Positions 878 to 36,131 of a DNA stretch of 43,606 nt are shown here, one piece after another. How positions within the stretch are numbered: position 1 is the first letter of the stretch; every line of letters begins with the position of its first letter. A program made the translations under genes and the position numbers. The DNA comes from a virus. Where the stretch lies: IMG/VR virus record IMGVR_UViG_3300033154_000517, positions 1-43,606 of that record; one strand, given 5' to 3'. The notes under the pieces were generated by a model, which was not told where the DNA came from, made no database searches, and worked only from the letters and a program-made list of their open reading frames with translations.

Positions 878-1104
878 AATTATCAAAAAGAAAAGTAGTT
901 GAAGTTGATGGATGCGATTTTTGTGGGAAAGAGGTTATAAAACCCGCAAAAGTAACGATTTCAGCCGATTCGTTTTTTATCGATGGCAAAGAAGTTTGTG
1001 GTTTTCGTGAAGTGTTACTTGTTTGTTCAGATTGTATGGTAAAGAAATTCAAACCAATGCTACATAAAAATACACCGGCCCAACTGAAATATCTTGACCG
1101 ATGA
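874..1104 (+). CDS. Small zinc-ribbon protein (CxxC...CxxC)
   Basis: A 76-residue protein with CDFC near residue 14 and CSDC about 40 residues later, a plausible four-cysteine zinc ribbon. I chose ATG 874 rather than the upstream in-frame ATG at 832 because it overlaps the previous stop as ATGA and follows a GGGGGG-rich ribosome binding site. Its own stop overlaps the polymerase start (ATGA). Zinc ribbons this small in phages usually bind nucleic acid or protein partners. Its position just ahead of the polymerase suggests a replication accessory, but this is inference. Confidence 0.7.
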   Translation: MKLSKRKVVEVDGCDFCGKEVIKPAKVTISADSFFIDGKEVCGFREVLLVCSDCMVKKFKPMLHKNTPAQLKYLDR

Positions 1105-2834
1105 TAATTGATGATCAAGGGAAAAAGTATGATAGTCTGTCTCAACCGATTGGACACGATGTTATAGTTATAGATACTGAAACAACCGGGTTAAATTATA
1201 TGACAGATTATCCTTTTGGTTGTTCCGTGGTATCTCTATCTCGACCAATTAAATTATATGTAACTATGCCAGAACATAATGAATGGTTAAGAGCATCGAT
1301 GTTTCATTCCAAACGTATTATTATGCAAAATGCAAAATTTGATCTTCATATGTTGTTACAAGCCGGGGTTATCCAAACAGATGAATTATATAAATTAAAA
1401 ATATATGATACATTTATCGCAGAAGCTTTAATTGATGAACATCTTAAATCATATAAATTAGACTCATTAGCTAAAAAATATGATGTGCCAGGAAAATTAT
1501 TTAATATAAAAGATTTGATTAAAGAGGGCAAAACTTTACTGGATTTAACAACTGAAGATATTGCCAAATATGCGATTCAAGATGCGGTAGCTACAGCAGA
1601 AATATTTAAACGACAAAACCTTAATGGATTAAAAAATATAACCCAGCTTGAATTTAAAGTGATAAAAACCTTGGTTGAACTTGAAAGAACTGGTATACGA
1701 ATTGATATACAAAATATAGAAAAAATAAAGGTGAACCAGAAAATTTACGTCGACCAATTGCAATCAAAATTAGAAAAAATGATTGGATTTGAACTTAATG
1801 TCTCTAGTAATAAACAAATGCAAGAGGCGTGGAAAAGATTAAAACTACCGGAAAGAACATCATTTACTAAAGATTTCTTAAAAATCCATCCACACCCATT
1901 TTGTAAAGTAGTACTAAATTTAAGATCAGCCAGAAAATTATATGAGACTTTTATGGTCTCAGTTCCAGAAAAAAATATTAATGGTAGAATATATACTAAT
2001 TTTAATCAAATGAGGGGAGATGATTATGGTACAAAAACTGGGAGACTCTCATCAAGTGGCCCAAACATGCAGCAAATCCCAAATCCCAAACGAGCAGATG
2101 ATAGTGACAAGCGCAAAGCTTGTAAAATTATTCGAAGCCTATTCATTCCCGATAATGAAAGACATAATTGGATATCAGCAGATTGGGAACAGTTCGAATT
2201 TAGAATTTTCGCCCACTTTGCTGACGACGAAGAAATTAAATACCGATATCAGCAAAACCCAAAGCTTGACTACCATCAAGTTGTGTCCGATCTTACTGGT
2301 GTTAGTCGATGGAAGGCAAAACAAATCAATCTCGGACTCATCTTTGGTATGGGCAATACTGCTTTGGCAAAAGAACTCAATCTACCGACCATACAAACTC
2401 CAGTTGGTGAAAGAGCGGGTGCAGAAGCCATGGTATTATTCAATCAGTATCACCGGAACCTCCCCTCTTCTAAAGCTCTTCTTAAAAGAGCGTCTGGAGT
2501 CGCAAGAAACCGGGGGTATATAAAAAGTTTATTGGGTAGATATATAAGATTTCCCGACCGATCAAAAGTATATAAAGCGGGGGGATTATTATTTCAATCT
2601 TCAGCAGCTGATTTAATGAAGAAAAAGCTAGTTGAATTAAACAGAGAGGCCAAAAACTACGGGGCTAAAATGAACTTAACTGTTCACGATGAATTTAATT
2701 TTAGCTGTCCTAAGGAAACAACGAATGATTTTAAACGAAAGATTAAGATTATTATGGAAAATATTCCGGAACTTACTATACCAATTTTGGCTGATGTGGG
2801 ATCTGGTAAAAATTGGCATAAAGCTGGTAGTTAA
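1101..2834 (+). CDS. dpoZ: Family A DNA polymerase with 3'-5' exonuclease, DpoZ candidate
   Basis: A 577-residue PolA-type polymerase without a 5' nuclease domain. The proofreading domain shows ExoI DTETTG (Asp25, Glu27), ExoII NAKFDLHML and ExoIII YAIQDAVAT. The polymerase domain shows motif A ADWEQFEFR near residue 361, motif B RWKAKQINLGLIFGMG near residues 402-418, and motif C VHDEFNF near residue 530. Motif A is diverged from the common DYSQIELR. Polymerases of this type encoded next to purZ are called DpoZ and favour 2-aminoadenine over adenine, partly through exonuclease selection. Preference here is inferred from the neighbouring purZ, datZ and mazZ genes. The start overlaps the previous stop (ATGA). 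The 5' part is AT-rich, while 2000-2520 is less so. Confidence 0.88.
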   Translation: MIIDDQGKKYDSLSQPIGHDVIVIDTETTGLNYMTDYPFGCSVVSLSRPIKLYVTMPEHNEWLRASMFHSKRIIMQNAKFDLHMLLQAGVIQTDELYKLKIYDTFIAEALIDEHLKSYKLDSLAKKYDVPGKLFNIKDLIKEGKTLLDLTTEDIAKYAIQDAVATAEIFKRQNLNGLKNITQLEFKVIKTLVELERTGIRIDIQNIEKIKVNQKIYVDQLQSKLEKMIGFELNVSSNKQMQEAWKRLKLPERTSFTKDFLKIHPHPFCKVVLNLRSARKLYETFMVSVPEKNINGRIYTNFNQMRGDDYGTKTGRLSSSGPNMQQIPNPKRADDSDKRKACKIIRSLFIPDNERHNWISADWEQFEFRIFAHFADDEEIKYRYQQNPKLDYHQVVSDLTGVSRWKAKQINLGLIFGMGNTALAKELNLPTIQTPVGERAGAEAMVLFNQYHRNLPSSKALLKRASGVARNRGYIKSLLGRYIRFPDRSKVYKAGGLLFQSSAADLMKKKLVELNREAKNYGAKMNLTVHDEFNFSCPKETTNDFKRKIKIIMENIPELTIPILADVGSGKNWHKAGS

Positions 2835-2845
2835 GAGAAAATAAT

Positions 2846-3136
2846 ATGTGTAAAGAAATTGAAAATGCTGAAATCATTATATTAGAAGAAAAACTGAGAG
2901 ACACCAGATTCCAACTTCAAAAATATATAGTGTATGACAAAGTAAATAATACAATACGATCACTTGAAAGAGCGAAAACATACTTAATAGCAATAGCTGT
3001 TACTCAGCATGAAGATACGGAATTAGCAAATAAAATTATTAGTATATTAACAAGTCCCATATCAGAAAACATACTTAATAGTATACAAGATTTAAAACAA
3101 ACTATTCCAGATATCTTGAAAGGAAGGATTAAATGA
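2846..3136 (+). CDS. Hypothetical helical protein between polymerase and purZ
   Basis: A 96-residue protein predicted to be almost all helix: a charged N-terminal segment (LEEKLRDTRFQLQKY), then alternating hydrophobic helices. No cysteines or catalytic motif stand out and I do not recognise it. It starts 11 bases after the polymerase stop and its stop overlaps the purZ start (ATGA), so it is probably made together with PurZ. Confidence 0.65.
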   Translation: MCKEIENAEIIILEEKLRDTRFQLQKYIVYDKVNNTIRSLERAKTYLIAIAVTQHEDTELANKIISILTSPISENILNSIQDLKQTIPDILKGRIK

Positions 3137-4182
3137 AGAAAGCTTATATGATTATTGATGGCCAATGGGGGAGCACAGGAAAAGGGTTGTTGTGCGGATA
3201 TCTTGTTGATAAATATAAACCAGATACGTTGGTATGTAATTTTGGCCCCAATGCTGGTCATACTGTTATCACCGATGATGGAAGAAAAGTAGTTACATGT
3301 CAGCTTCCGACCGGTATAATTGGAGATTCAGTCAAAAATGTTATGATCGGACCAGGAGCCATAATCGATCCTGAAAAATTAACCCAAGAACTTGCCGAAT
3401 ATTGGGATTTAATGGAAAATAAGAATCTTTTCATCCACGAACGAGCAGCGATTGTATTACCAGAGCATCGCAAGAAAGAAGAAGAGCTTCTCACGTGTAT
3501 CTCATCGACTTGTAAGGGGACAGGGGCAGCAGTGGTCGACAAGATCCTCAGAACCGGGGGCGTGGCACGAGATGATTATAATCTTTGTGACAGTACTGTA
3601 GATCATGCAACATGGCAACTTTTATTAAATGAAGCTACTAAAATCCAAATTGAATCAGCCCAAGGATTTGAACTCGGGATAAATACCGGTTCCCATTACC
3701 CACATTGTACGTCACGTGATATTACACCAGCTCAAGTATTATCTGACTGCGCTATTCCAATTTCATACTTGGATTTAGTTATAGCAGTTTGCAGAACATA
3801 TCCGATCAGAGTCGGTAATGCGTATGATAAAAATGGAAAAATGATTGGTTATAGCGGTGACGTATATAATGATCAAGTAGAGTTAAGCTGGGAAGGTTTT
3901 AAGAAATTTGGAGTCGAACCAGAAACTACTACTGTTACGGGCAAAATTCGAAGAATATTTTCGTGGTCATCATCAGGATTTCTCAAAATGTTAAGAACCA
4001 TCGAACCTGATTGGATATTTCTTAACTTCATGAATTATCTTGAAGGACCGCAAATGAAAGATCTTATAGCCACAATGCACAGAGATATAAAAACAGTGGG
4101 ATCAGAAAACGGTCAAGTAACCATTCTAAAATGGTTTGGATATGGCCCCAAACCGAAAGATATAATTAGCTTTATACCGTAG
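3133..4182 (+). CDS. purZ: PurZ: 2-aminodeoxyadenylosuccinate (dSMP) synthetase
   Basis: A 349-residue member of the adenylosuccinate synthetase family, short compared with bacterial PurA (about 430). Seen in order: P-loop region DGQWGSTGKG (residues 9-18), GPNAGHT (38-44), STCKGTGAA (125-133), the nucleotide-binding segment GINTGSHYPHCTSRD, and RTYPIRVGN (221-229). In PurA the P-loop reads QWGDEGKGK and its first Asp is the catalytic base. Here Asp-Glu is replaced by Ser14-Thr15, the kind of change reported for phage PurZ, which condenses dGMP with aspartate instead of IMP. Host PurB would then release fumarate to give dZMP. Its place between a PolA polymerase and DatZ/MazZ-like genes supports PurZ over a stolen PurA. 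Coupled to the preceding gene by ATGA. Confidence 0.9.
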   Translation: MKKAYMIIDGQWGSTGKGLLCGYLVDKYKPDTLVCNFGPNAGHTVITDDGRKVVTCQLPTGIIGDSVKNVMIGPGAIIDPEKLTQELAEYWDLMENKNLFIHERAAIVLPEHRKKEEELLTCISSTCKGTGAAVVDKILRTGGVARDDYNLCDSTVDHATWQLLLNEATKIQIESAQGFELGINTGSHYPHCTSRDITPAQVLSDCAIPISYLDLVIAVCRTYPIRVGNAYDKNGKMIGYSGDVYNDQVELSWEGFKKFGVEPETTTVTGKIRRIFSWSSSGFLKMLRTIEPDWIFLNFMNYLEGPQMKDLIATMHRDIKTVGSENGQVTILKWFGYGPKPKDIISFIP

Positions 4183-4190
4183 GAGTAAAT

Positions 4191-4778
4191 ATGGAAGATT
4201 TTGCTAAACATGTAAGAAGTGTGTTAGATAAAACATCTCAATCATTAAGTATTCTTGTCTTTGGGATAGCAGCATCAGGTAAAACAACTTTTTGTGACCA
4301 TGCGACTGGGTTATTACAAGCACGACATATGGACGCTCATAATGTTAAAATTGGACAAGCTATAAGAAACATGTCACCTAATGTTGAACTCGGACAAGAT
4401 AACCCAAAACGATTTAACCAATTAGTATTTCAGATAATCAAAACTGTTGTTGTTGATTCACCAACCCAATTTGTTTATCTTATAGATGGAGTCCCAAGAG
4501 ATAAAGAACAACTTGCCTACGTTACATTAATGTCTGAAAGATATGGCAATCCATATATGTTGGTTTTTATAAACAGCACAATAGATAGGGCAAAAAGAAT
4601 GGCACACAATGATTTAACTAGAAGTCGAATATCAAAAAAGACTTGTGGTGAATATGAATTTTTATACAACTATATAACAATGAGCATCAAAGGTGGATCA
4701 TTAAAAAATTGTGCAGGTGTTTATAAAGTAACACCTTTACCCGAAAATGAATACTACATAACAAGGAAAAAACCATGA
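4191..4778 (+). CDS. Adenylate-kinase-like P-loop nucleoside monophosphate kinase
   Basis: A 195-residue P-loop protein. Walker A is GIAASGKTT (residues 25-33) and the segment LIDGVPRDKEQ (98-107) matches the Asp-Gly-Phe-Pro-Arg phosphate-transfer motif of adenylate/UMP-CMP kinases, with Val for Phe. The length is that of a short, lidless adenylate kinase. It starts nine bases after purZ with a GGAG site and overlaps the HD-domain gene (ATGA). The inferred substrate is therefore dZMP, the product of PurZ and host PurB, which would otherwise depend on a host kinase. Alternatives are a general dNMP kinase or a polynucleotide kinase. Fold assignment is fairly sure, substrate is inference. Confidence 0.75.
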   Translation: MEDFAKHVRSVLDKTSQSLSILVFGIAASGKTTFCDHATGLLQARHMDAHNVKIGQAIRNMSPNVELGQDNPKRFNQLVFQIIKTVVVDSPTQFVYLIDGVPRDKEQLAYVTLMSERYGNPYMLVFINSTIDRAKRMAHNDLTRSRISKKTCGEYEFLYNYITMSIKGGSLKNCAGVYKVTPLPENEYYITRKKP

Positions 4779-5332
4779 AACTGTTAAAAGAGTGTCTTTA
4801 TTTGCACTCAATTCCCAGGTGGGGAATTATCGATGTATCACGACCACAAAATGTAGCAGAACACACATACCGAACAATGGCTATAGCCAAGCATCTTGTC
4901 GAAAGAATATATCGCAAAGATGACGACCAAAAGAAAAATTTAACTGTAATTTGGCAATACCTTTTTTATCATGATTTACCGGAAGTTTTAACCGGTGATA
5001 TTCCATCCACAATAAAAGACGAGTGTTTTAAGCCATGCCCAAAAGAATTACAAGAGGATGATTGGCACGAATACAGATATTTATGTAAATATCTTAGTAA
5101 AACACGATTAAATGAATTAATATGCAAACTTGCTGATCTTTCAGAAGCTGCAGTATATCTTAGTAGATATGGTATTGGTAGTAAATCTATAAAAGCAATT
5201 AGATATCTTAAAGATAAGATAATGAAACTTGAAAAAGAGTTTGAATTGCTTTCAAAAGAACGTAATGACATAAACACATTTATAAATCTTCCTGGTTTAA
5301 CTATGAGCATACTAGATATGTGGAGTATATGA
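4775..5332 (+). CDS. datZ: DatZ: HD-domain dATP triphosphohydrolase
   Basis: A 185-residue HD-domain hydrolase. Metal ligands fit His30 in NVAEHT, His66-Asp67 in FYHDLPE and Asp121 in KLADLSE, with a GDIPSTIK segment after the HD pair. It resembles YfbR-type nucleotidases and has the size and RWGIID N-terminal segment seen in phage DatZ. DatZ removes dATP (to deoxyadenosine and triphosphate) so that the polymerase meets dZTP instead. A dNMP phosphatase of YfbR type cannot be excluded from motifs alone; linkage to purZ and a MazG gene makes DatZ the best call. Its start overlaps the kinase stop and its stop overlaps the primase start, both as ATGA. Confidence 0.85.
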   Translation: MKLLKECLYLHSIPRWGIIDVSRPQNVAEHTYRTMAIAKHLVERIYRKDDDQKKNLTVIWQYLFYHDLPEVLTGDIPSTIKDECFKPCPKELQEDDWHEYRYLCKYLSKTRLNELICKLADLSEAAVYLSRYGIGSKSIKAIRYLKDKIMKLEKEFELLSKERNDINTFINLPGLTMSILDMWSI

Positions 5333-6798
5333 ACGATAAGACACTAATACGATTTGTAAAATTGTTTAAAGGGAATGATACCCAGTATGGTTATTTTGAC
5401 CCCCAAAAAGGTCACGCAACTATAAATGGTAAGCCCCCCAAAAAAGCATGGACTCGTCATTTGAATGGGAATATTGGAATAGGGATTATACCCATAACAA
5501 AACAGAGTCGGTGCTTTTTTGGGGTTATTGATATTGATGATCATCATAAAAGAGACAAACCATTAACTATAGCTGAATGGAGAAAAATATTAAAGGAAAC
5601 ACAAAATTTACCTTTAGTAGCATGTAGAAGTAAAAGTGGGGGTGCCCATCTATATACTTTTTCAAAAGATTCGACAACAGCCAGGGAAATGAGAATTAGA
5701 CTATTTAAATGGTCTCAAATGCTTAGTTTTAGATCGAAAGAAATTTATCCGAAAAAGGACAAAGTATTAGAGTCAGATCCAACCTCCGCATGGATAAATC
5801 TTCCTTATTTTGGCGACCAGCGATACGCAATAAATAAAAAAGGAAAATTGGAATTAAGTGAATTTTTGGATAGAGCAGAATCCATATCAAAATCAGTATA
5901 CAAAGTAGCTATATCGGATAGTGAAATGCCACCGTGTCTGACTATCCTTGTTACCAGTAAAATTTCAGAATTCAGAAATATAGCATTATTTAACATCGGT
6001 GTATTTTTAAAAAAGAAATATCCAGATAGATGGGAAGATAAGTTATTTAAAATAAATTACAAATTGTGTGATCCACCTCTTCAACACGGCGAAGTCGGTA
6101 ATATATTAAATATGTTGAGGAAAAAAGATTATTGGTACAAATGCAAAGAAGACCCAATTCAAAAACTTTGTGATCCGATTGAATGTAAAAAATGTAAATA
6201 TGGTATAGACACGATGGATACCCAAGAATTTATGTTGGGACCACTGCATAAAATACAAACTGATCCACCCAGATGGGTAATAGAAGTAAAAGGAAAAAAG
6301 ATTGAATGTGCGACAGAAGATTTATTTGACTATAGAAGAATGAGAATGTTATGTATGGATAGATTGACTATTGTTCTTCCATTAATAAAAAATGAATCAT
6401 GGTTAAATATGATTAGAGAAAAATCTGAAACCGTGGTTCTGGTTGATGCCCCTGAAGATGCAAGTCCAAAAGGACAAATATTTTGCGCATTAGAAGATTT
6501 TATAAAAACAGCTGCACCTACTGAATCAAAATCATCACTTATGTTTGCACCCATAATAGTAAAAGAAGATGGAAAAAAGATGATAATGTTTAGATCTTCG
6601 ATATTCGCTACATTTCTACGCCATCAAAAAATTCAAATACCTAAAATATCTGATCTATGGACTATATTAAGAAATATTTGTAGGCACAAAAAAGTAAGAT
6701 CAGGTGCAAAAGTAATACAAGTTTGGTATCTTGAGGTTCCAGAGGGAGGACTCGATACTATTAAAATAGAACCAAAGGAACCAGAAAATCCATTTTAA
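5329..6798 (+). CDS. Archaeo-eukaryotic primase (AEP/PrimPol-like) with Cys cluster
   Basis: A 489-residue protein whose N-terminal third has the AEP core: the metal-binding GVIDIDDH (Asp68, Asp70) and the CRSKSGGAHLYTF strand with Ser103 and His107. A Cys cluster near residues 280-290 (LCDPIECKKC) suggests a zinc site between the primase core and the C-terminal half, which has no recognised motif. Start at ATG 5329 overlaps the DatZ stop; a GTG nine bases upstream is in frame. AEP enzymes of phages prime and sometimes copy DNA. Cyanophage S-2L, the original Z phage, also uses a PrimPol-type enzyme. Here it accompanies a separate PolA polymerase, so its job is probably priming. Confidence 0.8.
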   Translation: MNDKTLIRFVKLFKGNDTQYGYFDPQKGHATINGKPPKKAWTRHLNGNIGIGIIPITKQSRCFFGVIDIDDHHKRDKPLTIAEWRKILKETQNLPLVACRSKSGGAHLYTFSKDSTTAREMRIRLFKWSQMLSFRSKEIYPKKDKVLESDPTSAWINLPYFGDQRYAINKKGKLELSEFLDRAESISKSVYKVAISDSEMPPCLTILVTSKISEFRNIALFNIGVFLKKKYPDRWEDKLFKINYKLCDPPLQHGEVGNILNMLRKKDYWYKCKEDPIQKLCDPIECKKCKYGIDTMDTQEFMLGPLHKIQTDPPRWVIEVKGKKIECATEDLFDYRRMRMLCMDRLTIVLPLIKNESWLNMIREKSETVVLVDAPEDASPKGQIFCALEDFIKTAAPTESKSSLMFAPIIVKEDGKKMIMFRSSIFATFLRHQKIQIPKISDLWTILRNICRHKKVRSGAKVIQVWYLEVPEGGLDTIKIEPKEPENPF

Positions 6799-6809
6799 GG
6801 AGGTAAAAT

Positions 6810-7130
6810 ATGGACATTAAAACAATAGCAAGAGAAATAATGATTAATAGAATCGAAAAAGGATTCCATACCCCACAAGAAATTGATTCAAGTCCGAGTA
6901 AAACTGAAATGCTGGCAAAACTTTGTCTTGTTCATTCTGAAGTATCAGAGGCTGCTGAGGCTGTTAGAAAAGGGGATTTTGAAAATTTTTCAGAAGAAAT
7001 AGCAGATATAATTATTAGAATTCTTGATATCGCAGCAACAACAGGTATGAATCTTGAAGCAGAAATAATGAATAAGATGTTTACAAATAAAAATAGACCA
7101 TTTAGACATGGCAAGAAATGTGATGTGTAA
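6810..7130 (+). CDS. mazZ: MazZ: MazG-fold dGTP pyrophosphohydrolase
   Basis: A 106-residue all-alpha NTP pyrophosphatase with the MazG metal motif ExxE (Glu44, Glu47 in HSEVSEAAE) followed by ExxD (Glu63, Asp66 in SEEIADIIIR). A very strong ribosome binding site, AAGGAGG, lies just upstream. In the Z pathway MazZ converts dGTP to dGMP, the substrate of PurZ. MazG proteins elsewhere are broad house-cleaning enzymes or degrade ppGpp-related nucleotides, so the specific name depends on the purZ/datZ context. Confidence 0.82.
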   Translation: MDIKTIAREIMINRIEKGFHTPQEIDSSPSKTEMLAKLCLVHSEVSEAAEAVRKGDFENFSEEIADIIIRILDIAATTGMNLEAEIMNKMFTNKNRPFRHGKKCDV

Positions 7131-10065: not shown

Positions 10066-12459
10066 TTACGGTCCGACCTCATACCAATTCGTACCATTGC
10101 ATGCCAGAACCCACCCACCAAAAGTGCTTGTAATTGTTTGATCGGCAGATCCATTTAAATATATTTTCTGGTTGCCGTGAGCTTCACCATATTCCAATAT
10201 GGCAGAAGTCATCATACCAGTATTACTGATAGCAATACATAAGACTTGACCATCGATTCCCCCGACAAAACCACCAATTGTTACGTTATTCATCATACAA
10301 TTTAAAAACAGAACATTAATTCCCGTTACATCATAATTGTCTGTTGGTCCTGCTGCAGCTAAGGTTGCAGTTTCAAAATCCACGGCATCCCCGAAAGTTC
10401 CACTTCCGGATGTAGAAAAATCGTGAGATTCAGAAGTCCAATCATAATGTTCCGCAGCAACAAAATTTGCCAAAGCATCATGAGACAATGTGGATTCTAT
10501 TGTCGCGAAAGTGGCTTTGTCATGATCCCCTGCTGCCCCATCAGCGTCACTATAACCAAACCAATCACCAGGTGAAACAGCCCGAGAATCCAAAGATGAG
10601 ATATCCAACGAAACGATATCCCCCGTGACATCTATTCCCGGACCCTCAGTCAAATTAGTATCATCCCCAATATCGATATTAGATAATGATGCTCCGGTAT
10701 GGTCGTGTAAAGCATCTGCATTCGACGTATCGGTTAATGTTTCCATTTCTGAACCCAGAATATTAGTTGCTGATCCGTTAAACGAATTTATTCCAGAAAT
10801 CGCTCCTCCAACTAAACTTGCAGTTCCATCAGAAATAGTTCCATCAGAAGTAATGCTTCCCAAGAAATGACGCGGACCAGAATGTACGAATTCGCCAGGG
10901 GAATCATCCCACATATCATACTGACCAGTAGGAGATGATCCATCATACCAATAATGATATTGATCACCATCTGCCCCATCCCAATTTTGATATAAATTAT
11001 TGCCATTAAACGCAAAGGAATGGCTTGAACGATGAAATGATTCTGAATCATCCCACATAACATATGCACCTGTACTACTGGCATTCTCAAAATTATAATA
11101 ATAAGAATCCCAATCTAAAGCTGATCCATAATATGCATATACATCTTCTTTTGCTCGAAGATTAGTATTAGACATAATATAATTTGCATTTGTGCTAATC
11201 GTGCCTGCGGACAAAGATGAATTTACCTTTAGACTTCCACTAAATAAATGCTGATTTAAAAAATTATCCCACGCCAAATATACTCCTGTAGGTGAACTAC
11301 CTTCGTGCCAATAATGATACGAGGTTCCATCTGGTCCATCATAATTTGTATAAGTATTTCCGTCAGCACGAATATCAGCAGCAGTGATATTAAAAGCTCC
11401 TGCGTCCCAATGACCTGATAATCCTCTGGTTCCATCGATAGTTAACGCCCAAGCATGATCGACCTGATCTCCAAGTCCCCCAAGGCCACCGTGATCTCCT
11501 CCAGTTCCCATGATAGTAAAATCCGTTCCGAGATCATCTAATAAATGGTAAGTCTGATCATCTTTTCCATAGATAACGAAATATCCTGATGGTGGTGTGT
11601 CTGGGGCAGATGCTTGTTCTACTCCATAAAACATATTACCCCACAAAGATGGGTGTTCAGTAGAACATTCTGTAATCGCTCGACTATTTGTCCAGTGTCG
11701 ATTAAACCCTCTTTGAATATTTTCAATCTTATACGGTCCAAAAGGAACTTGATACCGATCACTATTATATCGCCAAACTTTACAGGGACTATCTGTCGGA
11801 GTATTTGTAGGTGTTGGGGTCAAAGATGGTGTCGGGGTGTTGGTTGGTGTATATGTAGATGCTCCTGTTGGAGTAGAGGTTTGTGTATTTGTAGGTGTTG
11901 GGGTGAGAGTTGGTGTATCAGTCGGTGTCATAGTAACTAAAATCATTTGATCTAATCTCAGATAATGAGCTGTCGATCCGTTAAATGGTAAATAAATTCG
12001 AACTCGCATTTCATCATTTCCACTAATATAAGCCGATCTAGGAACAGGTGCTTCAAATTCATAATCCTGGTCTTCTGTCTCTAAGGCAATATCATGAAGA
12101 GTATCATTACAATCATACCAACTACGATCATTCCAGTTAAAAAATTGAACTTCATAATAGTGACCTGCTGATCCATCATAATACCCATTGATTGAAACTA
12201 AAGAATTATAGTTAGTTACACCAGTCCAAATATAAACAAAATCTGATCCTGGCGTTGTAGTTCCCGGAACTGGAGTTGAACCGGTTTCTTGGATAACTAA
12301 TCGAGTTGCATTATCCGTCCGCAAATCAGCAACATCACCTGAATCTACAGAACCGGCAACCGGGGTAAAGGCATATGGTTGATACCAAAGAGGTGTTGCT
12401 GTTTGGGAAAAAACCGGGATAGTGTATAACAATATTAATAATACAAAAACTTTTTTCAT
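10066..12459 (-). CDS. Tail fibre-like protein with signal peptide-like N-terminus and Thr-Pro linker
   Basis: A 797-residue protein. Residues 1-18 (MKKVFVLLILLYTIPVFS) look like a Sec signal peptide, which is unusual for a virion protein. A beta-rich domain follows, then a Thr-Pro linker (TPTPTNT type, about 50 residues, bases 11791-11935). The rest is typical of phage fibres: Gly/Ser/Asp-rich, with three copies of a module like YHYW-GSSPTGxYxxWDD, then a region with NADALHDHTGASL resembling trimeric fibre shafts. It lies at the tail end of the virion operon, directly downstream of the tip protein (ATGA overlap), where receptor-binding proteins belong. A role in host attachment is likely; the exported alternative is a protein displayed on the host. 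Confidence 0.7.
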   Translation of the reverse strand: MKKVFVLLILLYTIPVFSQTATPLWYQPYAFTPVAGSVDSGDVADLRTDNATRLVIQETGSTPVPGTTTPGSDFVYIWTGVTNYNSLVSINGYYDGSAGHYYEVQFFNWNDRSWYDCNDTLHDIALETEDQDYEFEAPVPRSAYISGNDEMRVRIYLPFNGSTAHYLRLDQMILVTMTPTDTPTLTPTPTNTQTSTPTGASTYTPTNTPTPSLTPTPTNTPTDSPCKVWRYNSDRYQVPFGPYKIENIQRGFNRHWTNSRAITECSTEHPSLWGNMFYGVEQASAPDTPPSGYFVIYGKDDQTYHLLDDLGTDFTIMGTGGDHGGLGGLGDQVDHAWALTIDGTRGLSGHWDAGAFNITAADIRADGNTYTNYDGPDGTSYHYWHEGSSPTGVYLAWDNFLNQHLFSGSLKVNSSLSAGTISTNANYIMSNTNLRAKEDVYAYYGSALDWDSYYYNFENASSTGAYVMWDDSESFHRSSHSFAFNGNNLYQNWDGADGDQYHYWYDGSSPTGQYDMWDDSPGEFVHSGPRHFLGSITSDGTISDGTASLVGGAISGINSFNGSATNILGSEMETLTDTSNADALHDHTGASLSNIDIGDDTNLTEGPGIDVTGDIVSLDISSLDSRAVSPGDWFGYSDADGAAGDHDKATFATIESTLSHDALANFVAAEHYDWTSESHDFSTSGSGTFGDAVDFETATLAAAGPTDNYDVTGINVLFLNCMMNNVTIGGFVGGIDGQVLCIAISNTGMMTSAILEYGEAHGNQKIYLNGSADQTITSTFGGWVLACNGTNWYEVGP
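11791..11935 (-). repeat. Thr-Pro dipeptide repeat linker in the fibre gene
   Basis: Low-complexity coding repeat that reads as TPTPTNT-type units on the minus strand. It joins the N-terminal beta domain to the fibre shaft. The same repeat style recurs in the gene at 26576-27868. Confidence 0.8.
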
Positions 12460-26575: not shown

Positions 26576-27868
26576 TCATCTCCTAACAAAGATAGCTATA
26601 TTTTTGGTTCCAGATGCACATATAAAATAAAATTTGGATTTAGGCACATTTGGTGAAATCCATCTTTTATATTCATTCGGTTGGATTACAATTCCAGTAT
26701 TTAATACCGCTGGACCATCTCCAATATGAACTGTTATATCTTCATCCGCAATGTTTTCAAGAAACAATTCCAGTACCGTATCAAAATGTGTAGTATCTAA
26801 TCCGAAAGTAGAAATTGCCCCAACGCTGACTACATCATGACAGGGTAATTCAGTACAGACTTGAGTGGGTGTCGGGGTAGGTGTATTGGTGGGTGTTGGG
26901 GTATTTGTGGGAGTATCTGTAGGTGTCATAGTGGGGGTGTCTGTAGGAGTGTTTGTAGGAGTATTAGTTTGAGTGTTTGTAGTAGTGGGTGTTTTAGTAG
27001 GAGTATCCGTGGGAGTATTTGTAGGAGTGTTAGAAGCTGTAGGAGTACTAGTAATATTTGTAGGAGTATTTGTAGGGGTATCCGTTGGTGTGTTAGTGGG
27101 GGTATTGGTTGGTGTATCTGTGGTAGTAGGAGTTAATGTTGGTGTATTTGTTGGGGTGGTGGTAGGAGTGTCTGTTGGGGTAGGAGTGTCTGTTGGAACA
27201 GCCGTATCAGCCGGTGTTGGGGTGTCATCAGGAGTATTTGTGACAGTTGGGGTGGGGTTAGATTCGTCAATTAACATGAGGTCATCTAAACATATTGTAT
27301 CCACACCGGTAGTCACAATTTTTATTTTAATGCATAATACCGAACCAGTAACAGATTGAGAATTCATGAATGTTTTTAACTGCCATGTATCATTTGCTGA
27401 AGGCATAATACTAGTAGAATTTTCGGTGGCACCAACACAAGTATTGCAAGTACCATCACCCCACCTACCAGTTAATGTGTTTACATCTTTATCACCGACA
27501 TAAACCCAAATTTTCGCAGTATAAGTATTTCCTGGAATAACACGATAAGATTTTTTAATCCAACCAGTGGCCCCTGCGTCATATGCCGTATACTTTACAC
27601 CATAGGTTCCATTTTTTCTACATGATACTGATTGTCCAGCAATATTTAAATTTATATCACTATCGAATTCAGTCCAACCAGAGGTGGAAAGTTTGTCTTC
27701 AAAATCTTCAGTGTATACTCCTCCTGGAATTGCAGTTGCTGTTGCTAATGGAGTACAAGTAGGAGTTGCTGTGGGAGTATTTGTTGGTGTCTGAGTAGGA
27801 GTGTCTACTGCGAACCCCACCGCACAAAATAATAATAAAATCGGTAAAAAAATCAAAAACTTGTTCAT
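26576..27868 (-). CDS. Secreted-looking Thr-Pro-repeat protein with CBM-like and C-terminal beta domains, between portal and protease
   Basis: A 430-residue protein. Start [20 protein letters not shown] at 27868 overlaps the portal stop (ATGA) and is a clear Sec signal peptide. A short Thr-Pro stretch is followed by a jelly-roll-like domain ([20 protein letters not shown] to [12 protein letters not shown]) in the style of CBM4/9. About 130 residues of Thr-Pro repeat then lead to a C-terminal 85-residue beta domain ([20 protein letters not shown] to KNIAIFVRR) resembling phage fibre-base domains. The location inside the head module suggests a head fibre that binds carbohydrate. The signal peptide instead suggests export from the infected cell, and the two do not easily fit together. 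Confidence 0.7.
26862..27262 (-). repeat. Long Thr-Pro coding repeat
   Basis: About 400 bases of degenerate tandem repeat coding [11 protein letters not shown]-type units on the minus strand. Codons vary, so selection is at the protein level. Such a stretch is likely an extended, possibly glycosylated linker. It also yields misleading open frames on the opposite strand. Confidence 0.85.
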
Positions 27869-30237
27869 ATAACCAATCTCCCAAAACCTTCCTGCGGTTG
27901 TAAATTTGTTTCTATAGGAAATGAGTCCCATCTTATATTATAGGATTCAAAAGCAAAAATAAATTCCATTATGGAATTACAATCTGTATGATTTGGTGGC
28001 CAAAAAAGATCTAATTCTGGATCTGACTCAGAAAATTTCATGTAACTAAGAAAATTACAAATTCCGGCAGAATCATTACCAATATATTCGCCACCAATTA
28101 TTATGTCAGATTCCCTAAATACCTTAAAACGAATGGAATTAAATATTATAGAATTAACATTACGTAATCCCATATTTAAAAAAGTCCAAGATTCTTTGTC
28201 ATTGCTCCCACCAAAGGGTACGAAAAAGTCAATTATATTATTAATGATTTTATCTTTAGGATAATTATCATCAAACCCATTGTATAATAAAATTTGAATA
28301 CCTTCTTTTAAAGCAGAATGAAATGAATTAAACCAGTATTCACTGATAGTGCTAATTAGATCAGATGAAATTTGTTCAATTAAAACATTAAGAGATTCTT
28401 CTGAAAAACCTAATGATTTATAATGAACATTTGCCATTAATAATTGTTGTTTTGTAACACTAATACTAACACTTTCTGACTCAATGGCAGTTTGTTTAAA
28501 CATTGTTTTTATACGGGATATATAAGGAATTTGAAGACCATTAATTTCATTACGAGATTCTGTCCGCCAACGATCAAAATTAATATGAATGCTTTTTATT
28601 AAACGATCACGAGACGATCTAATAATCGAAGAAACCAGGGCACTATACTGGGACACTAGATCATCATTTAATCTATACACAGAGCCTATCGAAAGTTTCC
28701 ATGGTTTTCTGGTTGGTGGTTTAATTTTTGGATCTTGCTTTGGTTGTCGGGGGATAGATACCAATTCTCCGGTTTCGGGATTAATTTGGCCTTCTGACAA
28801 AGTGGCAATGGGGGTTCCAGTTCCAACGAAATCTGGAAGTTGGGCTGCAACAGTTTCACCACGACCACCAGCGCCTTGCATAAGCTGATCTTGAAACGCC
28901 GCCATTTGTTGTAATTGAACAAAATCCTCTCCTTCATCAATAGCTGTTCGAACACCAGTCAATCGGGTATATTCAGCTGCGGGAATGGGTAAGTTCATGT
29001 TGTATCCGATAGCGAGAACTTTAGAATTCGCTGATACATCAATTTTTTTACGGGGTCGGAAAAGAATTTTTGGATAAAATCGCTGCCCTGAAGACCAGTT
29101 TACATTAATTATGGGTTCTGAAAATTGTCTTTCTAATATAGAAACAACGTTCTCGGCAATAAGATTCAAGAATGGTTGTTTAACAGAACTATCACGGGAA
29201 TCTTGTCCCGCTGCGTCACCGGCCTTGGCTGGTTCTGCTGTAGTAACCAAACCCACCAAGGCCCGTCTTACTTTACGATTTAATAATTCAGCAAAATTAA
29301 TAAAAATATTTCCTTCAATAACAGTGGCACGTTCGACATCAACTTTCATACCCTCTGGCATAATTAAAGCACCAGTTGAAGAGGCTACTTTGATAACACG
29401 TTCTAACATAGCTTTTTGGCGAAGATCCTTGCGCTTATAGGTTCCCATCCAAACACCAGAGGCGCGTTTTTCGATAAATTGACCAGCCATTTTAAGAACA
29501 ACTTTGCTAAGCCAATAACAATCATATATTTGGCGAAATTCCGATTCACCATACCAGTTAAAATAAGTGCTTAACCAGGGGAATATGATTAATTTTTGTG
29601 GGTTAACTGAAAATTCATCCGCATTAACTGTAAAATCAACAGAAATTAAATTACCATAAGAATCAGGACGAAATTCGTAATCAGCTTGAGGTTTGCCTTT
29701 AAGATTTGCATAACATATACGATCTTTGTAACCTTTATAATCTTTATGAACTAAAACTTTTTCCCAAACACCATTTCCCATAGAAAGAGCTTGTAACATA
29801 AAGTCATAAAGGAATGCTTGTTTTGGCTGAACAGTTAACTTATTGTTGAGAACACCACCGAGATTATCTAAATTCCATGCGACAAAATCGGCTTGTTCCA
29901 TTGCAATTTTATTTTTACGATCGGTAGGTTCTATTTCAAGAGGAGAAGACAAAACACCTGTGAAAAGTTCACGAAGAGATGCTTTAATTTCAGAGTCATG
30001 CAACATTTTTTGGTATATTTCGACTCCAAATTTCCCAACAAGGTCATCCGGGTTGGTATAAGCATCAATATTAAAATATTCAAATATAGAAGATTTAATG
30101 ACTTCTTCTATTTCACGATCTGAAATATCATATGGCAAAGGATTAATGATGGAATCTTTTATCCCAATAGCTGTGTCAATAACACCGGCTGCTATATCAA
30201 CTATTTTTTCAGAGAAATTGTGAATATTCTGGTTCAT
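27865..30237 (-). CDS. Portal protein (Mu gp29/DUF935-like) fused to a MuF-type domain
   Basis: A 790-residue protein. Residues 40-450 follow the Mu-type portal pattern: VEIYQKMLHDSEIKASLREL, FLYDFMLQALSMGNGVWEKV, FPWLSTYFNWYGESEFRQIY, and the loop VTTAEPAKAGDAAGQDSR. From about residue 560 a helical region leads to a C-terminal MuF-like module containing GNDSAGICNFLSYMKF and FWPPNHTDCNSI, which matches the Cys and Pro-Pro-x-His-x-x-Cys ending of head-morphogenesis proteins. In most phages these are two adjacent genes, so this is a fusion. It overlaps the terminase gene by 29 bases. Confidence 0.83.
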   Translation of the reverse strand: MNQNIHNFSEKIVDIAAGVIDTAIGIKDSIINPLPYDISDREIEEVIKSSIFEYFNIDAYTNPDDLVGKFGVEIYQKMLHDSEIKASLRELFTGVLSSPLEIEPTDRKNKIAMEQADFVAWNLDNLGGVLNNKLTVQPKQAFLYDFMLQALSMGNGVWEKVLVHKDYKGYKDRICYANLKGKPQADYEFRPDSYGNLISVDFTVNADEFSVNPQKLIIFPWLSTYFNWYGESEFRQIYDCYWLSKVVLKMAGQFIEKRASGVWMGTYKRKDLRQKAMLERVIKVASSTGALIMPEGMKVDVERATVIEGNIFINFAELLNRKVRRALVGLVTTAEPAKAGDAAGQDSRDSSVKQPFLNLIAENVVSILERQFSEPIINVNWSSGQRFYPKILFRPRKKIDVSANSKVLAIGYNMNLPIPAAEYTRLTGVRTAIDEGEDFVQLQQMAAFQDQLMQGAGGRGETVAAQLPDFVGTGTPIATLSEGQINPETGELVSIPRQPKQDPKIKPPTRKPWKLSIGSVYRLNDDLVSQYSALVSSIIRSSRDRLIKSIHINFDRWRTESRNEINGLQIPYISRIKTMFKQTAIESESVSISVTKQQLLMANVHYKSLGFSEESLNVLIEQISSDLISTISEYWFNSFHSALKEGIQILLYNGFDDNYPKDKIINNIIDFFVPFGGSNDKESWTFLNMGLRNVNSIIFNSIRFKVFRESDIIIGGEYIGNDSAGICNFLSYMKFSESDPELDLFWPPNHTDCNSIMEFIFAFESYNIRWDSFPIETNLQPQEGFGRLVI

Positions 30238-31700: not shown

Positions 31701-32660
31701 TTATTCCTGGTTAGTGGTTCGGTCATTGTCTTTGCTCGTTAAAGCGTTGATAAAATCAGAAACAGATTCAACAGAGAGTTTAGAAGAGTCCGTGTGCATT
31801 TCAGCAGCAAGACGCTGTAATTTGGAGGCTGCTTCAAGACAACGGACAGCAAGATTACCGTCTAAGGCTAATTTAACATCGCGTTGAATAGTGCCATCTT
31901 GTAAAACTTTTTCAGATACTGTACGTTTAATAAAATCAGGACCACGCTCAAGAATTAATGTTGCAAGATCCCGAAGAGCATTGCCCTGGTCAAAGTCTAA
32001 GTCACGGATTTTAAGTTGGCGATTAACCCATTTTGTGATTTCCAATTGATTAACATGGGCATCAAAGGCTGTAACACGTTGTCTCCATGTTTTGGCACCT
32101 TCAATAATGATACCACTGTGAGTACGGGCATTTGCCCAACGCGTCCATTGTTGGGGGGTACTGGGGGTGTTACCGTTTATGGTAATATCTGATGCAGCTG
32201 AAGAATGCTCTCTACGCCACGCAAAATATGCTGTTTTGAGAGAACGGGGTGGTGGCTGGGATAAATAATATTTATTAAAACAATAAAATGATTTGTCGGT
32301 GTCGTGTGGTTGGCGTTCCCAAAGATCAGGTGTCATATCCCAAAGTATATCCTTCTTAGTGTCAGATAGATGTTTCTCCTCTAGAAGAGGTATGGTTCCG
32401 CACGGGGGGTGTTTGTCTGAACAAGAGGGGTGGGGGGTTTGGGTAGGCACATCGCTGCTAACGGCAGGAGCAGAGGCTTGGTCGCTGCTGCTGGGCTTGG
32501 TCATCGTCGCTGGGTCGTCTTTGTGGTGCCCCCCCGCCGCGAGGTCGGGTAACTTGGGTGGCTTGGCTTTGGCTTCTTTGGCACGACTCTTGCCGGGGGG
32601 CTGAGGGCTGCGGGGTGGCTTTCCCCTAGTCCCGCCTTCTTTGTCTTTGCTGCTGCTCAC
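31701..32660 (-). CDS. Terminase small subunit-like protein with disordered N-terminus
   Basis: A 319-residue protein starting at GTG 32660, supported by AAGGAGACAAAGGCA just upstream and a promoter 88 bases before. The first 105 residues are Pro/Ser/Lys-rich and disordered. From WDMTPDLWERQPHDTDKSF there is a helix-turn-helix-like part (AKTWRQRVTAFDAHVNQLE) and helices ending in KLSVESVSDFINALTS, as in small terminase subunits. The N-terminal third is GC-rich while the rest is AT-rich, so the leader domain may have been added from, or drifted with, the neighbouring GC-rich region. First gene of the virion operon. Confidence 0.65.
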   Translation of the reverse strand: MSSSKDKEGGTRGKPPRSPQPPGKSRAKEAKAKPPKLPDLAAGGHHKDDPATMTKPSSSDQASAPAVSSDVPTQTPHPSCSDKHPPCGTIPLLEEKHLSDTKKDILWDMTPDLWERQPHDTDKSFYCFNKYYLSQPPPRSLKTAYFAWRREHSSAASDITINGNTPSTPQQWTRWANARTHSGIIIEGAKTWRQRVTAFDAHVNQLEITKWVNRQLKIRDLDFDQGNALRDLATLILERGPDFIKRTVSEKVLQDGTIQRDVKLALDGNLAVRCLEAASKLQRLAAEMHTDSSKLSVESVSDFINALTSKDNDRTTNQE

Positions 32661-32747
32661 TGCCTTTGTCTCCTTGCCGTGTCCTTGGTGTTCCCTTTGC
32701 TGCCCCCTGGCGTTCGTCTACAGGTCCGGGGGGTGTCTCCTAACCCC

Positions 32748-32777
32748 ATTAAAACACACGGCAGGGGTGTCTGTCAA
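32748..32777 (-). promoter_or_regulatory. Sigma-70-type promoter for the virion operon
   Basis: On the minus strand TTGACA (32777-32772), an 18-base spacer and TTTAAT (32753-32748) precede the terminase start by about 90 bases. The box layout, spacer length and GG directly after the -10 match the plus-strand promoter at 37537. A leader of about 80 bases follows, with an imperfect GC-rich hairpin around 32701-32735. Confidence 0.7.
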
Positions 32778-32956
32778 GTCTCGAAACGAGGCTACTCGTG
32801 TTTGCTCCGAACCCCCCGCGTGTCACCCCTACTTCTTCAGCACGAACCGCCTACTCTTCCTGCTACACGAACCACCACGACAACCAGAGGCACACCAGAC
32901 CCTCCCCCCGCGTCTCCCGGTCACTCGCGTCACCGAACTTCTCCTCTTTCGCTCTC

Positions 32957-33185
32957 TGGTGCTACGCAGTGCTACACAGCCCGGCAAGCGTCAGCCCCCG
33001 GAGGACGGGCACTCACACACACTCTCCTCCTCTCTGTAGCAGTAGCATCCCCCCGTGAGAATATGGCCCGCTCTCTTTTCTTTCCGGGAAGCCGCTGCTA
33101 CTGCTACAGCGCCACCCTCACAGCCCTCCGGCCCCCGGTCCCCGGTCACTCGCGCCCCCCGCCGCTGTAGCACTGCGTAGCACCA
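32957..33185. repeat. 20-bp inverted repeat pair (32957-32976 and 33166-33185)
   Basis: TGGTGCTACGCAGTGCTACA at 32957 is the exact reverse complement of 33166-33185. The arms are separated by 189 bases, and the smaller inverted repeat at 33035-33108 lies inside them, giving a nested arrangement. Confidence 0.85.
33035..33108. repeat. 13-bp inverted repeat (33035-33047 and 33096-33108)
   Basis: TGTAGCAGTAGCA and TGCTACTGCTACA are exact reverse complements 48 bases apart. Nested within the 20-bp pair. Confidence 0.8.
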
Positions 33186-33198
33186 CTGCCTCTTTGCA

Positions 33199-33538
33199 TG
33201 CAAGATCCGTGCCAAATTCCCCGCTATCGCAAACTTCTGCGACTCCCAGCCTCATCACCCCCAAACATGCAAGATTCGTGCCATCTTGCCCATACGCAAG
33301 ATTCGTGCCAAAAACGACCTCGCGACCCCTCCTCTCGCAAATAACCTCGTCATGACGCACCGCATCACTGCAAATCTCGTGCCAGCCTCCTAATACGCAA
33401 GAATCGTGCCAACTCCGGCCTCGTTTGCCCCTCAGTTCCTAATAGCCGCGTATGACGCAATGCGTTATCATGATGCGGTGCGTCAGACTCAGCCATTACC
33501 CAGTATGACACAATGCGTCATCTGCAAGATTCGTGCCA
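33199..33538 (+). repeat. Six copies of a 16-bp motif, consensus YGCAAGATTCGTGCCA
   Basis: Copies start at 33199, 33268, 33295, 33369, 33396 and 33523, all in the same direction, with zero to two differences from the consensus. Two pairs are 27 bases apart, near 2.5 helical turns. The motif has dyad character (GCAnGAnTCnTGC), as expected for a dimeric DNA-binding protein. These may be iterons bound by a replication initiator or operators. Confidence 0.85.
33353..33520. repeat. Four copies of a 15-bp palindrome, consensus TGACGCAnTGCGTCA
   Basis: Copies at 33353-33367, 33453-33467, 33471-33485 and 33506-33520. The first and third are exact reverse complements of each other. They interleave with the 16-bp motif copies and probably form a second protein-binding family. 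Confidence 0.82.
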
Positions 33539-33582
33539 TCTTTGTCTCCCAGCCCCTGTCTGCGAGGTCGCAACTCTCTGCG

Positions 33583-33733
33583 ATCGCCACATCGCTAGGC
33601 TCTTATCGCCCCAGCGCTAGTCTTGCCGGTCGCAAATCTTCGCGAACGTTCTCCCGACAAGCTCTTATCGCCAGAACGACAATCCCGCCCTCCTTATCGC
33701 CACATCGCTAGGCTCTTATCGCCAGAACGACAA
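33583..33733 (+). repeat. Longer direct repeats around CTTATCGCC
   Basis: A 28-base unit is duplicated exactly (33583-33610 and 33696-33723), and a 22-base unit beginning GCTCTTATCGCCAGAACG is duplicated at 33661-33682 and 33712-33733. The core CTTATCGCC occurs four times. Located just upstream of the rightward promoter candidate. Confidence 0.85.
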
Positions 33734-33769
33734 AAACGCGGCCTCCTGCCATCCCTGTGCTACGGGGGA

Positions 33770-33798
33770 TTGTGTCGCGGCCTTCCCTATGATAAGAT
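33770..33798 (+). promoter_or_regulatory. Possible promoter for the rightward small-gene operon
   Basis: TTGTGT (33770-33775), a 17-base spacer and TAAGAT (33793-33798) lie 64 bases before the first rightward gene. Both boxes differ from consensus by two bases, so this is tentative; the divergent layout requires a promoter somewhere here. Confidence 0.35.
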
Positions 33799-33820
33799 GG
33801 TAGTAGTAGGAGAGAAGAAA

Positions 33821-33889
33821 CAAGAGAAGAAACAACAACAGCAACCAAGAGGAGACAAGCAATGACAAGAGAAGAAACAACAACAGCAA
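33821..33889 (+). repeat. 24-bp exact duplication spanning leader and first codons
   Basis: A 24-base unit beginning CAAGAGAAGAAACAACAAC occurs at 33821-33844 in the leader and again at 33866-33889, where it encodes residues 2-10 of the following protein. The ribosome binding site and ATG lie between the copies. Confidence 0.85.
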
Positions 33890-34143
33890 TCGCTCGCCAC
33901 CAGGCAGCAGCGATGGCACACAAGGCAGCGGCATGGTGCGCACACTCCGCGATACTGAGTATGGGCACAAGCCAGGATCACGACCCGATCATCCTCGCGC
34001 TTACGACTATTGCCGATCTGGCATACCAAGCATCCGAGATCGCGGGCACCTCCGTTACCAGAGCAACGTACCCGCAAGAATCAGCCACTTGCCACGAAGC
34101 AGCAGTGATCGGCCACAATCAGGCCATCGCCCAATTATCCTAA
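33862..34143 (+). CDS. Ala-rich small protein, first gene of the rightward operon
   Basis: A 93-residue protein with a good GAGGAGA site. It is Ala/Thr/His-rich and likely helical (ARHQAAAMAHKAAAWCAH, then HEAAVIGHNQAIAQLS). Codon use is GC-rich, unlike most of the genome. Three His/Cys-containing helices could bind a metal, but no family is recognised. Being the first gene after the divergent region, it might be an early or regulatory protein. Confidence 0.62.
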   Translation: MTREETTTAIARHQAAAMAHKAAAWCAHSAILSMGTSQDHDPIILALTTIADLAYQASEIAGTSVTRATYPQESATCHEAAVIGHNQAIAQLS

Positions 34144-34148
34144 TCCCC

Positions 34149-34211
34149 GCTGCTCCTGCCCGGGTCCGACTCCCGGGCGGGCACTAGCTCTCGCCACGGT
34201 GGCGGAGCAGC
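34149..34211 (+). ncRNA. T-loop three-way-junction RNA element, copy A
   Basis: P1 GCTGCTC/GAGCAGC (34149-34155 with 34205-34211). P2 CTGCCCGGG/CCCGGGCGG with the seven-base loop TCCGACT. A linker containing CACTAG. P3 CGCC/GGCG with the five-base loop ACGGT. No unpaired base separates P1 from P2 or P3 from P1. It lies 19 bases upstream of the next ATG. Stem sequences differ from copies B-D while pairing is kept, which supports a selected RNA fold. Confidence 0.72.
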
Positions 34212-34229
34212 AACAAAAGGAGACAGACG

Positions 34230-34565
34230 ATGAGAGAAACAGACCACCCAGCACGAATAAGAAAAGAAAAAGCCGAAGCAAGAGCAGCAGCAATCGCCGC
34301 TCAGCCCCAAAACCGTAATCGTTGGCTTGCCATCACCACAGGCGAACTCAGCGATGGCATCAGCCAAGACACGATCACTGCCCCAGCAGACGCAACAGGA
34401 ACAGTCCTCAGTCGCGCCTTGTCGCTCGCCACAGGTGAGGCCGAAGACCACGATAACGAGCGCTGGTCGCTTGCCGACGAAGCGAACCCTCAGCCAGGAG
34501 TCGTAACGGTGCTTTGCTACGACGAGTACGGACACAACAGCGCAACAACGTTCGTCCGCCAGTAG
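34230..34565 (+). CDS. Hypothetical GC-rich gene, 111 aa
   Basis: A 111-residue protein after an AAAGGAGACAGACG site. The N-terminal 30 residues are basic and helical (RIRKEKAEARAAAIAAQ). The rest is Thr/Asp/Glu-rich and beta-like, ending YDEYGHNSATTFVRQ. No motif is recognised. It lies between RNA elements A and B, each gene here having its own structured leader. Confidence 0.62.
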   Translation: MRETDHPARIRKEKAEARAAAIAAQPQNRNRWLAITTGELSDGISQDTITAPADATGTVLSRALSLATGEAEDHDNERWSLADEANPQPGVVTVLCYDEYGHNSATTFVRQ

Positions 34566-34590
34566 TCACCAGTAGCCACCAGTAGCCACC
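34561..34590 (+). repeat. Three tandem 10-bp repeats at a stop codon
   Basis: AGTAGYCACC is repeated three times in a row. The first copy contains the TAG stop of the preceding gene, and the last abuts RNA element B. Confidence 0.85.
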
Positions 34591-34648
34591 GCTCCTGTGG
34601 GGAGTTCGCCTCTCCCCTCAGCACTAGTTCTGGTAGGTAACCAGGAGC
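34591..34648 (+). ncRNA. T-loop three-way-junction RNA element, copy B
   Basis: P1 GCTC/GAGC (34591-34594 with 34645-34648). P2 CTG-T-GGGGAG/CTCCCC-T-CAG with one T-T mismatch and the seven-base loop TTCGCCT. Linker CACTAGTT. P3 CTGGT/ACCAG with the five-base loop AGGTA. Thirty-nine bases upstream of the next ATG; a small GGCC/GGCC hairpin follows before the ribosome binding site. Confidence 0.72.
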
Positions 34649-34686
34649 AAAACACAACCGGCCTTACGGCCAAAGGAGAAGAAACA

Positions 34687-35778: not shown

Positions 35779-35781
35779 CCA

Positions 35782-35844
35782 CTCGTCCTGTGGGGGTGCG
35801 ATTCCCCCACAGATCATTAGTCGCTGGTAAAGTACCAGGACGAG
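35782..35844 (+). ncRNA. T-loop three-way-junction RNA element, copy C
   Basis: P1 CTCGTC/GACGAG (35782-35787 with 35839-35844). P2 CTGTGGGGG/CCCCCACAG, nine perfect pairs, with the loop TGCGATT. Linker ATCATTAGTCG. P3 CTGGT/ACCAG with the loop AAAGT. Starts four bases after the stop codon of the HLNPG gene and ends 28 bases before an ATG at 35872. Confidence 0.74.
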
Positions 35845-35893
35845 ACAAACGAAGACAAGAGAGGACAAGCCATGAAGGCAAAGGAATCAAACC

Positions 35894-36040: not shown

Positions 36041-36041
36041 T

Positions 36042-36104: not shown

Positions 36105-36131
36105 ACAACCAACAATAAAAGGAGACAAACC

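Follow-up and report, generated by a model that had tools for sequence, protein, structure and literature searches.

In the uncultivated virus record IMGVR_UViG_3300033154_000517 from IMG/VR (43,606 bases; hereafter the window, meaning the whole stretch analysed), a cluster of genes was found on the plus strand at 1101–7130 that is predicted to serve the replacement of adenine by 2-aminoadenine (Z) in the phage DNA. The genes follow one another in the order dpoZ-type polA, an open reading frame (ORF) of 96 aa, purZ, a kinase gene, datZ, a gene for an archaeo-eukaryotic primase (AEP) and mazG. An earlier note on this DNA had named all of them except the 96-aa ORF and had described them as a translationally coupled Z-genome cluster on one strand. 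The six named reading frames are indeed open, at the positions given below and on the plus strand, and the coupling is borne out by 4-nt ATGA overlaps at 1101 (the preceding ORF and polA), 3133 (the 96-aa ORF and purZ), 4775 (kinase gene and datZ) and 5329 (datZ and the primase gene), the remaining junctions being gaps of 8–11 nt. A strong Shine–Dalgarno sequence, aaggagg, precedes mazG, and GGAG precedes the kinase gene.

The gene at 3133–4182 (+) encodes a protein of 349 aa that is assigned as PurZ, succino-amino-deoxyadenylate synthase. Its score with the NCBIfam model NF038379 was 278 bits (E 7e-83; curated cut-off 300) versus 153 bits with the best PurA model, and the PurZ of the uncultivated sister phage L016 scored 268 bits with NF038379. 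The best solved structures were PurZ of the phage phiVC8 (E 1.5e-61) and PurZ of the cyanophage S-2L. PDB entries 6fm1, 7odx, 6zpa and 7pbk, here and below, are phiVC8 and S-2L proteins. The changed P-loop pointed out in the earlier note is present as GSTGKG, with S14 at the position of the catalytic Asp of PurA (GDEGKG in E. coli). A TTVT loop is located at 266–269 (T273–T276 in S-2L), and the equivalents of S-2L G22, S23, N49, T132, Q190, V241, T273–T276 and R280, the substrate residues used for comparison (PMC8342488), are invariant in the PurZ alignment including the window.

In a FastTree phylogeny of 265 rows, where the outgroup branch is long, the window fell into a set of 121 rows with S-2L, phiVC8 and SH-Ab 15497, which includes neither PurZ0 nor E. 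coli PurA. Grouping with IMP-using PurA, named in the earlier note as a test of the Z assignment, was thus found neither in the tree nor in the model scores. The nearest rows, in a set of eight, belong to the uncultivated phages L015, L016, L017 and L021 and to L398, a contig from a metagenome-assembled genome (MAG). The PurZ of L398 is the closest to that of the window (56% over 306 columns); its locus (L398:2438-6508) shows the order polA..purZ, MazG-like ORF, datZ, primase, and the binning of the contig as Gaiellales (SURF_19) is a hint at host or habitat. PurZ-like genes were also seen directly 3' of a cytidylate-kinase-like gene in the bacterial MAG contigs L402 (994 kb, with GSTGKG) and L404, which raises the question of whether they belong to a prophage or to a cellular PurZ relative.

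The datZ gene (4775–5332, +) encodes an HD-domain dATP triphosphohydrolase of 185 aa (phrog_7076, E 7e-23; PDB 6zpa, S-2L DatZ). The HD ligands H30, H66, D67 and D121 noted previously are in place. Equivalents of S-2L R19, W20, I22, Q29, A32, E70, G74, D75, K81 and K116 are kept, among them R15, W16, I18, E70, D75, K81 and the Lys preceding D121 in the window numbering, and P79 is replaced by Thr (T79). The last gene of the cluster (6810–7130, +) encodes a MazZ-1-like MazG protein of 106 aa, a predicted dGTP pyrophosphohydrolase (PF03819; phrog_3301, E 6e-23). Here too the reported motif set was found (E44/E47 and E63/D66): residues E35, E38, E50, D53, I56, D60 and R83 of S-2L correspond to E44, E47, E63, D66, I69, D73 and R96, and I56 and D60 are the guanine-reading residues of S-2L MazZ-1 (PMC8342488). 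The closest homologues of this protein among the PurZ loci are located near purZ. The primase of 492 aa (5320–6798, +), a PrimPol-like AEP, matched phrog_21866 (E 1e-83) and PF22548 AEP-TOTE (E 2e-9); it is an alternative ATG at 5329 that gives the ATGA overlap with datZ. The family of this primase also occurs in about 50 of 393 PurZ loci.

The polymerase gene (1101–2834, +) encodes a family A enzyme of 577 aa with exonuclease and polymerase parts, which matched the NCBIfam DpoZ model NF038380 with 416 bits (E 2e-124; curated cut-off 500) and PDB 7pbk with E 5e-68. It keeps DpoZ insertion 1 (GDDY) and the L455/F459/G548 signature, as L411/F415/G495. Insertion 2 on helix O is absent in the window polymerase, and insertion 3 and the exonuclease helices E1/E2 are shortened or absent; the sister polymerases of L015, L017 and L021 also do not contain insertion 2. 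Because insertion 2 and long E1/E2 are wanting and 416 bits lie below 500, the protein is called DpoZ-type only and is a variant, not a strict phiVC8-like DpoZ. Taken together, the PurZ model scores and tree, and the retention in DatZ and MazZ of most of the published S-2L specificity residues, support the Z-cluster interpretation of the earlier note. Judged by homology and diagnostic residues, the core of a Z pathway (MazZ, PurZ, DatZ and DpoZ) is very probably present.

The kinase gene (4191–4778, +) lies 8 nt downstream of purZ and encodes a P-loop kinase of 195 aa, a putative dZMP kinase. Its conserved motifs are the P-loop GIAASGKT (K31), G55, R59, D99, P102, R103 and Q107. Searches of Pfam and NCBIfam returned weak P-loop/AAA_17 and adk matches of at most 26 bits, and since the curated adk cut-off was not reached (21 bits versus 168), the protein is described only as adenylate-kinase-like. 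A hidden Markov model (HMM) built from 20 other purZ-linked kinases, with the window left out, recognized it with 51.8 bits (E 1.2e-13 at a search setting of Z = 30000). When the window kinase and two family members were searched against 50,697 phage records, two weak matches and no clear homologue were found; single-sequence pattern scans brought up no close relative of either the window kinase or its PurZ. The earlier note missed that the kinase is not incidental to the cluster but a member of a purZ-linked family.

To describe this family, 391 PurZ loci, taken from IMG/VR (which holds 561 in total), from phage records and from the window, were grouped into 253 clusters with 95% PurZ identity as the threshold. 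When ORFs of 100–300 aa with a P-loop were sought within 3.5 kb of purZ, many kinases of one kind appeared immediately 3' of it. The kinase HMM found members in 35 of the 253 clusters, including the window. Every one of them adjoined purZ, in 34 clusters immediately on its 3' side and in the same orientation and in one (L251) upstream, and approximately 3.4 Mb contained no further matches. Most purZ–kinase junctions are overlaps of a few to 60 nt or gaps shorter than 20 nt. A separate HMM built from eight cellular adenylate kinases (Adks) alone found 21 of the 35 clusters, all directly downstream of purZ, so the choice of seed sequences is not the cause of the linkage, and both scans rule out a chance neighbour. 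In a later search for kinase relatives not adjacent to purZ, five loci emerged: four were already known purZ neighbours and one (L397) had no purZ.

In eight clusters, the kinase runs on into an all-alpha nucleoside triphosphate pyrophosphatase domain (dUTPase_2 or, weakly, PRA-PH). This was tested in L094, L119, L121, L123, L124 and L159, and was recognized from the alignment in L125 and from a weak PRA-PH match in L152. The product of L159:9122-10675 (517 aa, 3' of purZ) comprises the Adk-like kinase, the pyrophosphatase and a C-terminal domain. In the latter, a deoxyribosyltransferase-like motif LAGP..SAGAHAE was seen by eye, and searches did not confirm an identity with DmtZ.

In an alignment of 32 members, the P-loop GK, P102, R103 and Q107 were invariant and R59 and D99 nearly so; we take the conserved Arg and Gln residues to occupy the positions of Arg36, Arg88 and Gln92 of the AMP site of Adk. 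The Gln of Adk reads N1 and N6 of adenine, a face common to Z and A and not to G. Of 21 aligned purZ-linked members, 19 have another residue in place of the Thr in the STGD motif of Adk, a position at which the cellular Adks of the alignment carry Thr or Ser; this loss is consistent with an altered base pocket. Against PDB, the family profile matched adenylate kinase 1 (E 3e-15), and the model of member L097 (predicted local distance difference test, pLDDT, of 92) had adenylate kinases as its top fold matches. Adk/AK1 and the UMP-CMP kinases have in common with the purZ-linked kinases the P-loop nucleoside monophosphate (NMP) kinase fold, the Arg of STGD..R and P-R-x3-Q. The new family differs from Adk in scores far under the adk cut-offs, in GKS/T in place of GKG, in the usual replacement of the STGD Thr and in its adjacency to purZ.

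A DatZ profile detected datZ nearby in 174 of the 218 kinase-free clusters, compared with two of the 35 kinase clusters, namely the window and L251. In several members of the kinase clade that were examined, no datZ was detected and the vicinity of purZ holds either an all-alpha pyrophosphatase or a Dut-like gene, while some contigs end too early for a judgement. By its gene content, the window joins the DatZ/MazZ/DpoZ set with the kinase. Dut-like genes of the trimeric dUTPase type were also seen 3' of the kinase or of a DUF5664-like gene in L095, L096 and L139 of the kinase PurZ clade, and perhaps represent DutZ outside the PurZ0 phages.

Compared with the purZ, mazZ and datZ set of S-2L (PMC8342488), the window is similar in PurZ, MazZ-1 and DatZ with kept specificity residues and in an AEP-type primase, but it has a DpoZ-type PolA and an extra kinase, and the kinase gene, datZ and the primase gene stand between purZ and mazZ. 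The Acinetobacter phage SH-Ab 15497, Salmonella phage PMBT28 and Vibrio phage phiVC8 likewise have DpoZ, PurZ, DatZ and a MazG-type/MazZ-2 protein in one operon, and in siphophage Z clusters dpoZ and purZ are also separated by a small ORF. In contrast to the window, these three phages have no Adk-like gene and their DpoZ contains insertion 2, and in siphophage clusters MazG is fused to dGTP_diPhyd_N. The domain that isolated siphophages carry at the N-terminus of MazZ was considered as a kinase and ruled out, being dGTP_diPhyd_N. The Gordonia phage Ghobes and Arthrobacter phage Wayne (PMC12884076) also use a PurA-paralogue route to dZTP, but there PurZ0, DutZ, DmtZ and DUF5664 replace PurZ, DatZ and MazZ. 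No kinase was found directly 3' of purZ0 at the four purZ0 genes checked, and the ORF following purZ0 was ruled out by inspection, as its P-loop is missing.

These data allow us to propose a pathway in which MazZ would convert dGTP to dGMP, PurZ would join dGMP with aspartate to form dSMP, and host PurB would release dZMP; the Adk-like enzyme encoded beside purZ could then yield dZDP, from which host Ndk would form dZTP. For other Z phages, the parts played by host PurB and Ndk are established. DatZ would meanwhile destroy dATP, and the AEP primase and DpoZ-type PolA would replicate the genome, pairing Z with T and giving virion DNA of the ZTGC type. As hydrolases for both dATP and dGTP lie in the same operon, dZMP would be the sole NMP that the phage needs to phosphorylate upward. 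We regard this scheme as a whole, in which the cluster makes 2-aminoadenine DNA and the kinase phosphorylates dZMP, as moderately probable. For the kinase itself, genomic linkage, the pyrophosphatase fusions and the Adk-type NMP-site residues give a dedicated dZMP kinase about an even chance.

Several observations weigh against the scheme. Most Z phages, including the isolated ones examined, do not have the kinase, which therefore cannot be essential, and reportedly (Sleiman et al. 2021) host GMP kinase and Ndk were sufficient in vitro for phiVC8. The linkage counts are not independent, since 33 of the 35 kinase rows fall into one PurZ clade (33 of its 34 rows), with the window and L251 apart. 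Within the family, no member diverges more than the window kinase (top identity 23%), whose placement is unsupported; its AlphaFold2 model (pLDDT 88) is closest to PFKFB and APS kinases, at template modelling (TM) scores of 0.5–0.6, and not to Adk. UMP/CMP kinases have much of the same residue signature, and the PurZ and DpoZ scores are slightly below the NCBIfam cut-offs. The kinase could have a general role as a phage kinase of dNMPs (dTMP, dCMP or a mixture) and raise the levels of other dNTPs beside a genuine Z pathway, its place in the operon being fortuitous. Such kinases are frequent in phages, the window model resembles generic P-loop kinases, and a T4-type DNMK-like kinase of another kind lies directly upstream of and overlaps purZ in two other PurZ lineages (L066:5565-6158 and L244:7349-7939). 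The purZ–datZ slot of relatives, moreover, varies in content and carries other nucleotide enzymes, a dUTPase-domain protein in L021 and the MazG-like ORF in L398. We nevertheless consider this explanation rather unlikely, given that the sequence is of Adk type and not of DNMK or Tmk type, with an invariant Gln at the adenine-recognition position, and that the family is linked to purZ, has no matches elsewhere in the flanks and is fused to dNTP pyrophosphatases.

With dAMP or dGMP as its substrate, or running in reverse, the kinase could also balance the two nucleotides around PurZ and MazZ. The site is Adk-like, NMP kinases are reversible, and in the kinase clade, where DatZ is not detectable, the Dut-like or all-alpha pyrophosphatases could yield dAMP and dGMP; yet restoring either nucleotide would undo the work of DatZ and MazZ in the same operon, and the STGD Thr is lost, which makes this role improbable. 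Somewhat less probable again is a mixed genome with Z in place of only part of A. It is suggested by a polymerase that may be less Z-selective, insertion 2 being missing in the window, L015, L017 and L021 and E1/E2 being shorter in the window, but S-2L fully replaces A despite a non-selective PrimPol because its DatZ removes dATP (PMC8065100), and DatZ is intact here. Ordinary purine metabolism, with a PurA-like enzyme, HD and MazG proteins and normal A-DNA in the virion, is very improbable. The sub-threshold PurZ and DpoZ scores would fit it, as would the presence of some DpoZ signatures in polymerases of non-Z phages (PMC8599892), but the PurZ-specific residues and tree position, R19/W20/I22 of DatZ and four Z-pathway families within 6 kb speak against it.

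The remaining genome is that of a tailed phage: the minus strand carries the genes for the terminase, the portal, the major head protein and the tape measure, and the plus strand those for an exonuclease, a Sak4-like annealing protein, a single-stranded DNA-binding protein and a helicase. The helicase (41,446–42,792, +; phrog_1967, E 1.5e-76) is UvrD/Dda-like and belongs to the replication module; in isolated Z siphophages a UvrD-like helicase gene lies immediately 5' of dpoZ. The 96-aa ORF (2846–3136, +) had no matches in Pfam, NCBIfam or PHROG and no homologue among the 393 PurZ loci; the same slot in isolated Z siphophages holds an ORF of 99–113 aa annotated as 'DNA-binding' or hypothetical. 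Where the structural module meets the early one, 32,001–36,500 forms a block of 45–63% G+C, against about 35–38% for the genome, and part of it is strongly AT-skewed; an insertion of foreign DNA, or a join made in assembly, could account for it. The otherwise unrelated proteins encoded at 34,597–35,778 and 37,593–38,210 apparently have a common C-terminal stretch (..DIND..LRxK..HLNPGxQRMxxGNxxRxxxR); one of them matches PHROG 8941, of unknown function, and neither has a Pfam match. Genes at 10,066–12,459 and 26,576–27,931 encode probable surface proteins with long Thr-Pro repeats of the TPTNTPT type.

Descriptions of the Z pathway have so far left its final part to unspecific host enzymes. The steps from dSMP through dZMP to dZTP are assigned to the host (PMC12884076, NAR 2026), and within the open-access PMC literature the word 'kinase' is absent from the Z-pathway papers PMC12884076 and PMC8342488. 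A polymerase without insertion 2 narrows the set of DpoZ features that Z could require. It is an evenly balanced proposition that the previously undescribed, Adk-derived phage enzyme family beside purZ in at least 35 lineages is a dZMP kinase that frees the phage from the specificity of host NMP kinases. If so, a kinase at the dZMP step would explain the supply of dZTP where the kinases of the host act poorly on dZMP. It would also fill a gap in the set of parts needed to construct Z-DNA in cells, where the three-gene S-2L set in E. coli led to the replacement of ~4–23% of A (PMC8342488).

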